A DNA stretch of 64,000 bases from assembly GCA_900317835.1 (NCBI GenBank), contig ONIL01000001.1:141968-205967 (forward strand). Direction: 5' to 3'. Positions 5,303 to 64,000 of the stretch are shown piece after piece. Source of the stretch: an uncultured Prevotellaceae bacterium. Lineage in GTDB: Bacteria; Bacteroidota; Bacteroidia; Bacteroidales; Muribaculaceae. Within the stretch, counting starts at the first letter, position 1. Each line of letters starts with the position of its first letter. Position numbers and translations under genes: made by a program. Below the pieces are notes generated by a model. It made no database searches. It worked only from the letters and a program-made list of their open reading frames with translations, and was not told where the DNA came from.

Positions 5303-6547
5303 ATGGCTAAAGTTAAACCGTTCCGTGGCGTAAGACCGCCGAAAGAGTATGTTGAGAAAGTAGCGTCCAAGCCCTACGATGTCCTCTCAAGCGAGGAAGC
5401 ACGTGCTGAGGCTGGTGACAATGAAATGTGCCTGTATCACATCATTAAGCCCGAAATCGATTTCGAGCCCGGTACTGGCGAACACGAGCCCAAGGTCTAT
5501 GACAAGGCCGTTGAGAACTTCAAGAAGTTCCAGGACAAGGGTTGGCTCGTTCAGGATCCCGAGGAGTGCTACTACATCTATGCCCAGACCATGGATGGCC
5601 GCACTCAGTACGGCTTTGTGGTTGGCGCCAGCGTTGAGGATTATCTCACCGGCCGCATCAAGAAACATGAGCTCACCCGCCGTGAGAAAGAGGCTGACCG
5701 TATGCACCACATCGAGATCAACAATGCCAATATCGAACCGGTATTCCTGGCTTTCCCCGACAACAGCATTCTTGAGGAAATCATCGATCGCACTGCACAG
5801 ACAACACCTGAGTATGACTTCGTTAGTGAAGACGGCATTGGCCACACCTTGTGGGTTATCAAGGATAAGGAAACCATCGACACCATCACCCGCGAGTTCG
5901 GTGAGATTCCTTACCTCTATATCGCCGACGGTCACCACCGCACCGCTGCTGCTGCCCACGTGGGCGAGGAGAAAGCAAAAGCTGATCCCAACCACAATGG
6001 CACCGAGGAGTACAACTACCTGCTGGCAGTTTGCTTCCCGCAGTCACACCTCAAGGTCATGGACTACAACCGCGTGGTTGTAGACCTGAACGGCAACACC
6101 GAGGAGGAGTTCCTCGAGAAGTTGCGCGAGAAATTCATCGTCGAGGAGAAGGGCACCGAGATTTACAAGCCCAGCAAGCTGCACAACTTCTCGCTGTACT
6201 TGGGTGGCAAGTGGTACTCACTGACCGCTAAGGAAGGCACCTATGACGACAATGACCCCATCGGCGTGCTTGACGTGACGATCAGCAGTGACTACATCCT
6301 GCGCGACATCCTGGGCATCACCGACCTGCGCACCGACAAGCGCATCGACTTCGTTGGCGGCATCCGCGGCCTGGGCGAGTTGAAGCAGCGTGTTGACAGT
6401 GGTGAGATGAAGATGGCTTTGGCACTCTATCCCGTGACCATGAAGCAGATCATCGACATTGCTGATAGCGGCAAGATCATGCCTCCCAAGGCTACCTGGT
6501 TTGAGCCCAAGCTGCGCTCGGGTCTCATCATCCACAAGCTGGACTGA
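5303..6547 (+). CDS. DUF1015 family protein (COG4198)
   Basis: A soluble 414-residue protein matching DUF1015 over its length. The N-terminus has the family opening (FRGVRPPKEY and SKPYDVLS), and the centre has the conserved YIADGHHRTAAA segment (DGHHR at 209-213), which looks like an active or metal-binding site. The C-terminal part includes KRIDFVGG and ends in the PKATWFEPKLRSG motif. In many Bacteroidales it neighbours serine biosynthesis genes, but none are seen here, so a link to amino-acid metabolism is only a guess. A strong terminator follows directly. Confidence 0.88.
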   Translation: MAKVKPFRGVRPPKEYVEKVASKPYDVLSSEEARAEAGDNEMCLYHIIKPEIDFEPGTGEHEPKVYDKAVENFKKFQDKGWLVQDPEECYYIYAQTMDGRTQYGFVVGASVEDYLTGRIKKHELTRREKEADRMHHIEINNANIEPVFLAFPDNSILEEIIDRTAQTTPEYDFVSEDGIGHTLWVIKDKETIDTITREFGEIPYLYIADGHHRTAAAAHVGEEKAKADPNHNGTEEYNYLLAVCFPQSHLKVMDYNRVVVDLNGNTEEEFLEKLREKFIVEEKGTEIYKPSKLHNFSLYLGGKWYSLTAKEGTYDDNDPIGVLDVTISSDYILRDILGITDLRTDKRIDFVGGIRGLGELKQRVDSGEMKMALALYPVTMKQIIDIADSGKIMPPKATWFEPKLRSGLIIHKLD

Positions 6548-6580
6548 TATCGGGTTAACTGTTAACTGAGAACTCTTAAA

Positions 6581-6616
6581 AAGCGTTATCGAGACAATCG
6601 ATAGCGCTTTTTTTCG
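6581..6616 (+). terminator. Intrinsic terminator after the DUF1015 gene
   Basis: Arms 6582-6591 and 6599-6608 pair over 10 bp (one G-T) around a 7-nt loop, followed by a T-tract from 6608. It separates the fur/DUF1015 unit from dnaN. Confidence 0.85.
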
Positions 6617-6657
6617 TTTTTTTATTAACAAGGTCACATTATTAAAGAAAAAAACAC

Positions 6658-6665
6658 TAAATTTG
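6658..6665 (+). promoter_or_regulatory. Likely -7 element for dnaN
   Basis: TAAATTTG fits TAnnTTTG, lies after the terminator and 53 nt before the dnaN ATG. The -33 element is not obvious, so this is a moderate call. Confidence 0.4.
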
Positions 6666-6718
6666 TAGGTTAAAAGATAAAACAAAAAATTAATCACACT
6701 ATAAAGAGACATAACTGT

Positions 6719-61882: not shown

Positions 61883-61955
61883 GGGGCATTAGCTCATCTG
61901 GTAGAGCGCAACACTGGCAGTGTTGAGGTAAGCGGTTCGAGTCCGCTATGCTCCA
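61883..61955 (+). tRNA. tRNA-Ala (anticodon GGC)
   Basis: 73 nt with a complete cloverleaf: acceptor stem GGGGCAT with ATGCTCC (one G-T), D-arm GCTC/GAGC, anticodon stem CAACA/TGTTG with loop CTGGCAG giving anticodon GGC, a 5-nt variable loop, and a T-arm AGCGG/CCGCT with TTCGAGT loop. Discriminator A; the CCA end is not encoded, so the nucleotidyltransferase at 54958 must add it. Confidence 0.97.
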
Positions 61956-61966
61956 CAACCTACAAC

Positions 61967-62006
61967 TGCTTAATTAGCTATAAAACAGCGAATTAAGCAT
62001 TTTTTA
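61967..62006 (+). terminator. Terminator after tRNA-Ala
   Basis: Arms 61967-61975 and 61991-61999 pair perfectly over 9 bp, followed by six T. Confidence 0.85.
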
Positions 62007-62296
62007 TTTTTGTCAAAATCCAATCCGTTGTCATACTGTTGTCATAAAAACATAATGATGAAAAGCAATGACAACAATGTCATGATAATGGAATGACAAA
62101 GTCTTCAGAGAGCTGCTCCCCGACAGATGCCACCGAGATACTAGAAAGGCATAACACGCTCTGACGGACAAGAATTCAACCCTCCCCTTCTCTCTCTTTA
62201 CCGTATAATTAAGGTGTAATTCTCGGGCCGTTCAAACGAAAACATTTACAAAATTACGCGAAATTACGATTTGTAAAGGATTGAAAAAATCAAATG

Positions 62297-62484
62297 CTTG
62301 ATTATCAAGTATTAAAGGGTTGAAAAGGGATTTTTTCCCTTTGTTTCCCTCTCAGGATCCCCCTACCGCCCTGCGGAGCGCTTCTGAAAATCGCTTGATG
62401 ATAAAACGCTATATGCAGGGCGAATGTACGGTAATTAAGCTCACATGCGTGGACGAATCCGAACGACTGTCTGGTTTCGTCCAC
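62297..62484 (+). repeat. Composite repeat, unit A
   Basis: Order of blocks: a CTTGA/TCAAG palindrome; AAAGGGTTGAAAAGGGA with a TCCCT return arm; GGATCCCCCTACCGCCCTGC ending in GGAGCG at 62380; CGCTATATGCAGGGCGA (62407-62423); and a hairpin (62449-62484) with 9 perfect pairs, GTGGACGAA with TTCGTCCAC. The leading block seen in B-D is missing or unrecognisable here. Confidence 0.75.
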
Positions 62485-62689
62485 ACCATCCCTGGAATTA
62501 TGATATGTGTTAAAGTAGTACAAACGAACGATGTTATCAATGCGACCACTGCCGCTTCGTTGTGGCGGCGGTTGTAGCGTTATATTTTGTAGGCGGTTGA
62601 TTCAACATCATAAATGCAAACTCTTTGGAATGTCAGAGAGACCCAACAAAGGCCGAAAAGTGCCAAAAAACGCCATTTTCATGTGTGAC

Positions 62690-62967
62690 GTAAAAACATA
62701 TATATCAACGAGTTATCTTGTGCGATTTCAGACGATTTTTACGATATTTTTCGAGTTGTCAAGCATTCAAAGAAAATTTTGACTGATAATCAGCTATTTA
62801 CAGGGTTACGGGACGGTAGTCCCGGTCTCTCTCTTGGTACCCCCCATCCGCCCTACGGAGCGCTTCCGAAATCGTGTCTTCATCAAAGCACTATATGCGT
62901 GGCGATGGGCGGTACATAGGCTGTCGTGCGTGAGCGAATTCGACACGAAGTATCGGTTTCGACTCAT
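62690..62967 (+). repeat. Composite repeat, unit B
   Basis: The most diverged in its middle: it begins with GTAAAAACATATATATCAAC, reaches CTGATAATCAG, has a GGGAC/GTCCC hairpin in place of the A-rich one, then CCGCCCTACGGAGCGC to 62863, CACTATATGCGTGGCGAT and the terminal hairpin 62930-62967 with loop CACGAAGTA. Confidence 0.75.
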
Positions 62968-63048
62968 CCATAGAGGCTCCGCTATGACTCTGAGATGCCT
63001 TTATTTGTTGGGCAAGATGTTGTAGAAAGGTGCAGAAATTTGGAGCCC

Positions 63049-63344
63049 TCAAAAACTCCTATATCAGCAAGTTAGCAGATGGAATTATAGGCGATTTTTT
63101 AGAAAAATCACCAAAATTCCTATTTTGAAATCTGCTAATAGCTGATATCCAGTCATCTAAAAGGTTTTAAAGGGAAATTTTCCCTTTATTTCCCTCTCGG
63201 GATCCCCCTACCGCCCTGCGGAGCGTGCCCAAAATCCATCAGCCACAAAAGCGCTATATGCAGAGCGATGTTCCAGCCATTGAGCGGTAAAATCGCTCAT
63301 GTGTGACGATGAACCGACACGAAGTATCGGTTTCGATGGCACAT
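63049..63344 (+). repeat. Composite repeat, unit C
   Basis: Opens with a long inverted repeat (63061-63080 against 63130-63148, most positions paired), then AAAGGGAAATTTTCCCTTT, GGATCCCCCTACCGCCCTGC with GGAGCG ending at 63225, GCGCTATATGCAGAGCGAT and the hairpin 63299-63344 with CCGACACGAAGTATCGG. An extra hairpin TGAGCG/CGCTCA lies at 63281-63299. Confidence 0.75.
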
Positions 63345-63540
63345 ATGCCCCTGCTGCTATGGAAAACCGCCATTTTGATATGCTGTGAGATTGAACTAAC
63401 GATTGGTGATATCAAATGGTGGTCTGTTCTTCTGGCTGGTTTCTGATGCAAAGGCAAAACAGGTGACCTTTCGTGCTTCTCTGATAGCGTGTGAGAAAAA
63501 TGAGCCGAAATTTTAACATTTGACTCATGATTTTTTGAGT

Positions 63541-63840
63541 GTCGTAAAAACACCTATATCAGTAAGTTAGTATATAGAATTTCGGACGAGCATTTCTTAA
63601 AAGTGAAAATTTTCCGCACCTCGAGAGGTGACTTTGGCTGATAATCAGCCAATTAAAGGGTTGAAAAAGGGAAAATTTTCCATTCTTTCCCTCTTGGGAG
63701 CCCCCGACTGCCCTGCGAAACGTGTTGGAAACTCACTTTCAAAAAAGCGCTATATGCAGGGCGATTTTGGCATTGTGCGGTGATGATGATGACGTGCGTG
63801 AGCGCATCCGACACGCAGTATCGGTTGCGCTTATGCTCGT
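63541..63840 (+). repeat. Composite repeat, unit D
   Basis: Opens GTCGTAAAAACACCTATATC, has GGCTGATAATCAGCC, AAAGGGAAAATTTTCC, a changed GC-rich block (CCCCCGACTGCCCTGCGAAA to 63720), GCGCTATATGCAGGGCGAT and the longest terminal hairpin (63792-63840), in which 18 of about 20 positions pair. Confidence 0.75.
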
Positions 63841-64000
63841 CAATACCGATGCTTTCTGTGCGACAACATCGTGCCTTGAACTTGTTCCAGGCTTGATGTT
63901 GTGCTCTGGCGATGGCGACGGGCGGTGAAGCGCAGGCAAGGGAGCGCAGAATGGCGACAGAGGCTGGAGTGTGCCCAAGGCTCACAGCACCGATACCCCT

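Follow-up and report, generated by a model that had tools for sequence, protein, structure and literature searches.

The repeat array at the end of the analysed DNA (the window, a stretch of 64,000 nt) probably forms the 5' portion of a large non-coding RNA element in which repeated 5' domains, here termed UNITs, are followed by one GC-rich 3' domain, the TAIL, and which would act in phages and tRNA-linked islands as proposed below. Judged from its sequence, the element is most likely a non-coding RNA, presumably transcribed from the + strand. The best reading is that it belongs to a new family of large phage and island RNAs, similar in kind to GOLLD and ROOL and not a member of either by the Rfam test; its new traits are the multiplied 5' domain and the distribution over both phages and islands.

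Architecture of the array

A repeat search of the window finds a 47-nt GC-rich block in four copies with start-to-start spacings of 482, 363 and 497 nt, which reproduces exactly the distances given in an earlier sequence-only reading of this DNA, and the four ordered, diverged copies of the blocks named there are present at the place it gave. When UNIT 1 is used as a DNA query against the whole of its own genome, UNITs 3, 4 and 2 are matched at E values of 1.3e-22, 2.5e-18 and 3.4e-10, and the similarity among the four copies is far above chance. Profile matches, from which the extents were taken (window coordinate = position in locus L009 + 59032), resolve four UNITs of about 300 nt spanning 62210-63848 (Table 1). 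UNIT 1 consists of an AT-rich leader, a palindromic hairpin (H2), a second hairpin (H3), a CCCCC motif, a GC-rich stem (H5) and a terminal hairpin (H7); the block anatomy of the earlier reading stands, but the UNITs are longer than the blocks it named. That reading ended the feature at 63840, but a conserved GC-rich region follows up to the end of the contig (C24:141968-205967), which coincides with the end of the window, and the element is cut there at position 64000. The statement of that reading that no ORF, integrase or transposase is present holds inside the array, where only overlapping short ORFs of at most 115 aa occur. A second array with two UNITs lies on contig C13 of the same genome, and UNIT matches in this genome are confined to C13 and C24.

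Table 1. Features of the window at and around the array
Feature	Position	Strand	Basis
tRNA-Ala (GGC), upstream of array	61883..61956	+	ARAGORN, Rfam tRNA
Inverted repeat 3' of tRNA-Ala, putative terminator	61964..62002	+	repeat search, cross-locus comparison
UNIT 1, first-unit type	62210..62489	+	profile extent, repeat and DNA search, tree
UNIT 1 parts, in order: AT-rich leader, H2 (62294-62312), H3 (62324-62342), CCCCC, H5, H7			
UNIT 2, middle type	62691..62974	+	profile extent, repeat and DNA search, tree
UNIT 3, middle type	63051..63347	+	profile extent, repeat and DNA search, tree
UNIT 4, last-unit type, adjoins TAIL	63545..63848	+	profile extent, repeat and DNA search, tree
TAIL start, profile positions 1-143 of 559	63857..64000	+	profile; complete TAILs in relatives

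In a tree of 63 units, first units cluster together, as do most last units, and units 2 and 3 of the four-unit arrays form orthologous sets; the exceptions are the last units of L045 and L052, L054 and some truncated units. Four-unit arrays are accordingly orthologous across species, with their units grouping by position. Seven of the eight loci with four UNITs follow a tRNA-Ala gene; the eighth, L046 (G023:C1), differs from its orthologs in that no tRNA gene was found in the 3.5 kb upstream. At L150 a tRNA-Ala is followed by one UNIT, and the single units of L048 and L072 resemble, by eye, a first-unit leader fused to the 3' half of a last unit. The genomes are drafts in many contigs, with the exception of G084 (one contig), and unit counts may be low at some loci because arrays often reach contig ends.

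Several smaller features were noted in and upstream of the array. The inverted repeat 3' of the tRNA is apparently present, by eye, in each of 19 compared tRNA loci. Short direct repeats also follow tRNA-Ala (TTGTCAT twice, window 62028-62045), with other sequences after other tRNAs, and are perhaps integrase sites. Duplication of the tRNA 3' end as an attachment site was considered and set aside: an 11-mer search of 19 tRNA loci proved no att pair, with matches only in L044, within its tRNA cluster, and none at the other 18. First-unit leaders (e.g. window 62270-62289) and the copy in L176, from family f22, share a TTGTAAAGG-TTGAAAA box that could be a promoter or a protein site; no promoter for the element was identified. 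A short peptide with the conserved ATG in CTATATGC as its start codon was likewise rejected, the spacing behind the ATG varying between unit types by a number that is not a multiple of three.

The TAIL, of which the window holds the start, is complete in L044, L047, L050, L095 and other loci, where it measures about 560 nt (559 profile positions). The GC-rich region after the last UNIT is about 78-99% identical between loci; other lineages carry different, longer GC-rich stretches behind the UNIT. Degenerate TAIL pieces recur downstream of the core TAIL domain. Near the TAIL 3' end several copies contain a GCCCAC...GTGGGC inverted repeat that would compete with the closing helix described below. 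A run of at least five T follows the TAIL in four of the 13 copies from phages, and none of the island copies listed has one.

Covariation and strand preference

Three alignments were used: that of the UNIT comprised 25 of the 29 units remaining after reduction at 95% identity, omitting four partial units; that of the TAIL kept 10 tails from 42 matches; and that of the core comprised 23 of 27 retained cores, without L097, L111, L112 and L113, a set that includes three of the most diverged. In the UNIT, 20 of 45 predicted pairs show changes on both sides, against 14.7 in shuffled alignments (3 of 500 shuffles), and 86 cells carry such changes against 33.5 (0 of 500). The UNIT covariation score is 0.275 against 0.172 in shuffles (0 of 500) and 0.06-0.09 in slid controls, the latter comparison favouring the structure because that alignment was also its source. 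Pair types are no more numerous than in shuffles (50 against 48.6, 180 of 500). Column-shuffled UNIT alignments fold to -16 +/- 4 (60 shuffles), compared with -91 for the real one. The signal in the TAIL comprises 106 pairs, 56 of them with changes on both sides (0 of 500 shuffles on all five measures), a covariation score of 0.364 against 0.158 (0 of 500), and 93.8% of cells paired against 33-44% in slid controls; all these covariation tests correct for relatedness only in part. A closing helix joins the two ends of the TAIL, which change together (columns 56-65 with 606-615), and the TAIL is predicted to be one folded domain. The stretches behind other UNITs contain 42 covarying pairs of 466 (seven sequences), 39 of 297 (five) and 1 of 505 (two nearly identical sequences), counts that carry no shuffle control. 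In a few diverged units the hairpin before CCCCC has a GNRA tetraloop (GAAA in L055 and, read by eye, GAGA in L053 and GCAA in L176), and most units lack one there.

These compensatory changes bear directly on two readings in terms of DNA or protein. That the array is a decayed gene or a plain protein-binding array is scarcely credible: short ORFs do overlap the region and H2 is palindromic, but changes are compensated across many pairs. The protein-binding array offered by the sequence-only reading is unsupported because fixed binding sites do not show compensatory pair changes. As to a gene, the antisense ORF found in another TAIL type extends over 175 aa in L138 and over no more than 90 aa in L142, and is therefore not kept open. 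The sequence-only reading had named membership of a known Rfam family, or descent from a decayed gene, as what would speak against it; no Rfam family matched the element at the gathering score and no coding relative was seen.

Whether the folded strand would be RNA was approached through strand preference. The + strand folds to the lower energy in 10 of 10 TAILs (mean difference 27.9 kcal/mol, Wilcoxon 0.002) and in 14 of 14 further loci, in which up to 1000 nt after the UNIT, with variant or other TAILs, were folded; many of these 24 tail sequences are close relatives. The preference is not significant for the UNIT (+ lower in 17 of 25, p 0.08) or the core (10 of 23, p 0.74). Alignment energies on the + and - strands are -91.0 and -79.6 for the UNIT, -259.4 and -227.6 for the TAIL and -49.7 and -44.7 for the core, the last order reversing without RIBOSUM (-2.7 and -4.9), and the intergenic region of L176 folds alike on both strands (-224.6 and -228.2). 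Among pairs predicted on both strands, whose cells are not independent, G.U and A.C number 52 and 64 in the UNIT (6 and 11 without RIBOSUM) and 53 and 32 in the TAIL (17 and 10); in the core they number 47 and 33. A strand call from wobble pairs was not decisive, G.U not exceeding A.C in UNITs and exceeding it modestly in TAILs. The predicted TAIL fold points to a + strand RNA, and the UNIT alone would be compatible with RNA or single-stranded DNA. An array of related non-coding RNAs, another option of the earlier reading, thus fits best, as UNIT and TAIL covary and the + strand gives the TAIL its better fold; its transcription is presumed.

Distribution

A DNA search found matches in 14 of 61 genomes (its own included), all of the window's genus, and none in 24 genomes of other families. 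The UNIT core, searched as a covariance model (R1), matched 57 of 101 genomes of the genus, and 33 of the 48 genus genomes with at least 90% completeness and at most 5% contamination; the element is dispensable, because 44 of the 101 gave no match. Two of 393 genomes sampled across the order match, the window's own and G195 of family f22 (E 0.0075), and five genomes from other genera of the window's own family gave no R1 match; the filters of this search lose weak matches. The G195 match looks real: it sits in the same prophage slot with synteny kept, and by eye it retains H2, H3, a GTCT-GCAA-AGAC hairpin, CCCCC and the GTGCGGTAAAATCGC motif. A pattern scan of named genomes returned 19 contigs, all recorded as uncultured members of the Bacteroidales or of its families, several with isolate names that are RUG numbers or ruminant gut sites (goat, roe deer). 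Among viral contigs the exact TAIL pattern was matched once, in L095 (30,857 nt), which carries the element, and two exact UNIT patterns gave no match, exact patterns being able to miss relatives. At the DNA level the L095 copy matched none of 50,697 phage and 72,556 plasmid records. The tape-measure protein encoded beside the phage copies is at best 24% identical to those of Flavobacterium phages; a wider search with it matched 9 of 295 genomes, and, G195 apart, the eight tape-measure loci found (L178-L185) were without UNIT or TAIL matches in the roughly 0.7-1.5 kb or less of DNA available upstream of the gene.

Prophages and tRNA-linked islands

The 73 classified loci comprise 21 in prophages, 24 with a tRNA and replication genes, 17 with a tRNA only, six with replication genes only and five others (L106 and L121 at contig edges, L117, L046, and L171 with nothing recognised). 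Every prophage locus has one UNIT (21 of 21), and the 47 island-type loci, which follow a tRNA gene, replication genes or both, have one, two or four. In prophages a tape-measure gene was found at 18 of 21 loci, on the opposite strand in all 18, and lysis genes (amidase or the next gene) at 14 of 21, again on the opposite strand in all 14. No tape-measure gene was found in the 4.6 and 6.7 kb of upstream DNA of L111 and L157, and the sequence of L113 begins at the edge of its contig. The gene after the amidase, which we take to be spanin-like, has no match in PHROGs; weak matches to it lie downstream at two tRNA loci (L092, L104). Prophage loci showed no tRNA link.

An upstream tRNA gene on the same strand is present at 41 of 73 loci, of the types Ala, Leu, Lys, Pro and Arg. 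Islands encode HTH_17, BT4734-like_N/PriCT_2 and DUF3987 families and replication-initiation and DnaC-like loader PHROGs; other families at the loci are Phage_int_SAM_5/Arm-DNA-bind_5, PhageMin_Tail, Amidase_2 and Zn_ribbon_IS1595. At least one replication or regulator gene of the search set occurs at 30 of 73 loci, and a search-set integrase is absent at 67 of 73; upstream integrases lie at L045, L103, L140 and L170 (tRNA-Pro) and at L117, and none of the search set at other non-phage loci. Just upstream of the L117 UNIT, three consecutive ORFs (L117:155-3324) are putatively tyrosine-recombinase-like. At L049 an IS1595-type zinc ribbon gene (5846-6676) lies on the opposite strand between tRNA-Leu and the island genes, with similar ORFs in L050, L052, L054 and L092, and at L052 (2717-6572) cargo genes resembling defence genes (DUF262-like, AAA ATPase) lie between primase and UNITs.

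The island setting would also suit a rather unlikely alternative, that the element serves phages and islands in cis as an origin of DNA replication or transfer that folds as a single strand (a single-strand initiation site, oriT or RNA-primed origin). In islands the element stands directly after HTH and primase/DUF3987 genes or Rep and DnaC-like genes, each UNIT has a conserved AT-rich leader, and UNIT wobble counts do not favour RNA. However, the phage copies lie between lysis and tape-measure genes with no search-set replication gene in the DNA covered, up to 7.5 kb on one side and 5 kb on the other, and the tRNA-Ala arrays persist with none found alongside. A domain of about 560 nt in which 56 pairs covary, whose two ends are joined by a helix and whose folding energy shows a consistent strand bias, exceeds what known origins require.

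A non-autonomous mobile or REP/MITE-like repeat inserting between genes is very unlikely, and the non-autonomous elements considered in the sequence-only reading are only half right as a description. The element does travel in prophages and tRNA-linked islands, occurs in several settings and leaves TAIL pieces scattered between genes beyond several arrays, but the scattered copies expected of such a family are missing from its own genome, with UNITs at two places only; at the 18 of 21 prophage loci where the tape measure is in view, the phage copies fill a single intergenic slot, and the positional orthology of the four-unit arrays argues against it as well. Hypervariable gene regions (L087-L090, L060-L062), some beside tRNA-Leu, have TAIL pieces between genes, and the same genes (putative GNAT, esterase, MFS, Nrf operon) are reordered between species. 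Integron-like gene cassettes (attC-type arrays) were considered here and rejected, the TAIL being predicted as one folded domain and no recombination site having been shown; the pieces between reshuffled genes read better as remnants of older copies.

Relation to known large RNAs and a proposed mode of action

The Rfam library includes models of GOLLD and ROOL. At the gathering score, the window and L044, L047, L008, L095, L102, L112, L176 and L055 gave no match to the element, and the only matches (cmscan) in element-bearing loci were to tRNAs and to a single cobalamin riboswitch lying outside it; relaxed scans gave only sub-threshold hits, all with E values of at least 0.33, among them mir-996 at the terminal hairpin. 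A literature search found no description of the element. Phage satellites (PICI, P4-like elements, PLE) are characterised by a tRNA-linked position and by regulator and replication genes, and the islands are like them in these respects; they may differ in that 67 of the 73 loci showed no search-set integrase.

According to PMC12286853, GOLLD is a very large RNA (many examples exceed 800 nt) that phages and prophages carry, frequently close to tRNA islands, with a conserved 3' and a less conserved 5' region, and ROOL is a large structured RNA with the same carriage and neighbourhood; structures of such large ornate phage RNAs have been solved, with function given as unknown. The present element, if an RNA, resembles GOLLD in its size, covarying structure, conserved 3' and less conserved 5' region, carriage by phages and prophages and proximity to tRNAs, but it gave no Rfam match to GOLLD, and here the 5' domain is repeated, tRNA-linked islands are also carriers and the hosts are Bacteroidales. 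It resembles ROOL in being large, structured, found in phages and prophages and often near tRNAs, although the ROOL covariance model does not match it. Further traits of GOLLD and ROOL are abundant expression, which for GOLLD rises during lysis, and assembly into a homo-oligomeric RNA cage. A further comparison is offered by the Vibrio phage ICP1, which makes a non-coding RNA of about 800 nt beside its lysis cluster, and by its PLE satellites, which also make an abundant non-coding RNA, the PLE IIR transcript (PMC7567579). Both systems would have a non-coding RNA in phage and satellite, the ICP1 one likewise by lysis genes; the sections of PMC7567579 drawn on do not state that one RNA is common to ICP1 and PLE, whereas here phage and islands have the element in common.

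By analogy, the element plausibly works like the GOLLD/ROOL and ICP1/PLE RNAs. Tailed temperate phages of these Bacteroidales would make the RNA from their own promoter, opposite to the late genes and by the lysis genes, and, like GOLLD and ROOL RNAs, it may build up as a folded, stable particle while the phage grows. Replicating islands linked to tRNAs, plausibly satellites of phages, would have acquired this RNA for a role in the same phase, and extra UNITs there could vary the dose or valency of the 5' domain. The tRNA-Ala copy of the window, without element genes alongside, would then be a relic or domesticated. A more specific version, which we regard as speculative and rather improbable, holds that phage and satellites share one giant RNA and that the island form with its multiplied 5' domain is a higher-valency or decoy version, interfering with or co-opting the helper's particle near lysis. 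The position of the element by phage lysis genes and island replication genes, together with the copy series 1, 2 and 4, would provide handles on the function of large phage RNAs: when the RNA is made, by whom, and what multiplying the 5' domain does. In addition, it would point to a class of tRNA-linked and possibly satellite elements that is little explored in these Bacteroidales.

Sequence shared between phages and islands

A comparison of 22 phage loci (L095 and L151 taken as the same contig) with 33 island loci gave 573 DNA matches inside UNIT/TAIL profile matches and 215 outside. The best 25 of these 215 lie at or downstream of the UNIT, up to about 2.4 kb away, and are 77-97% identical over 0.44-1.57 kb; this sharing counts in favour of the proposed phage and island RNA. 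Near-identical copies in phages and tRNA-linked islands are what would be expected of a satellite hijacking its helper, and a packaging (pac/cos) or other helper-recognition site, copied by islands from the phage for packaging, would account for them. This is nevertheless unlikely: pac and cos sites are much smaller and less structured than the element, the phage copy adjoins lysis and tape-measure genes, and the two to four copies in islands would have no clear use.

At the protein level, 19 island ORFs match phage loci, including several antisense ORFs of shared stretches, four integrases and a few small shared genes. The integrases at L045, L103, L140 and L170 (tRNA-Pro) are 58-61% identical to an integrase fragment of the f22 prophage L176, which adjoins the tail genes of that prophage.
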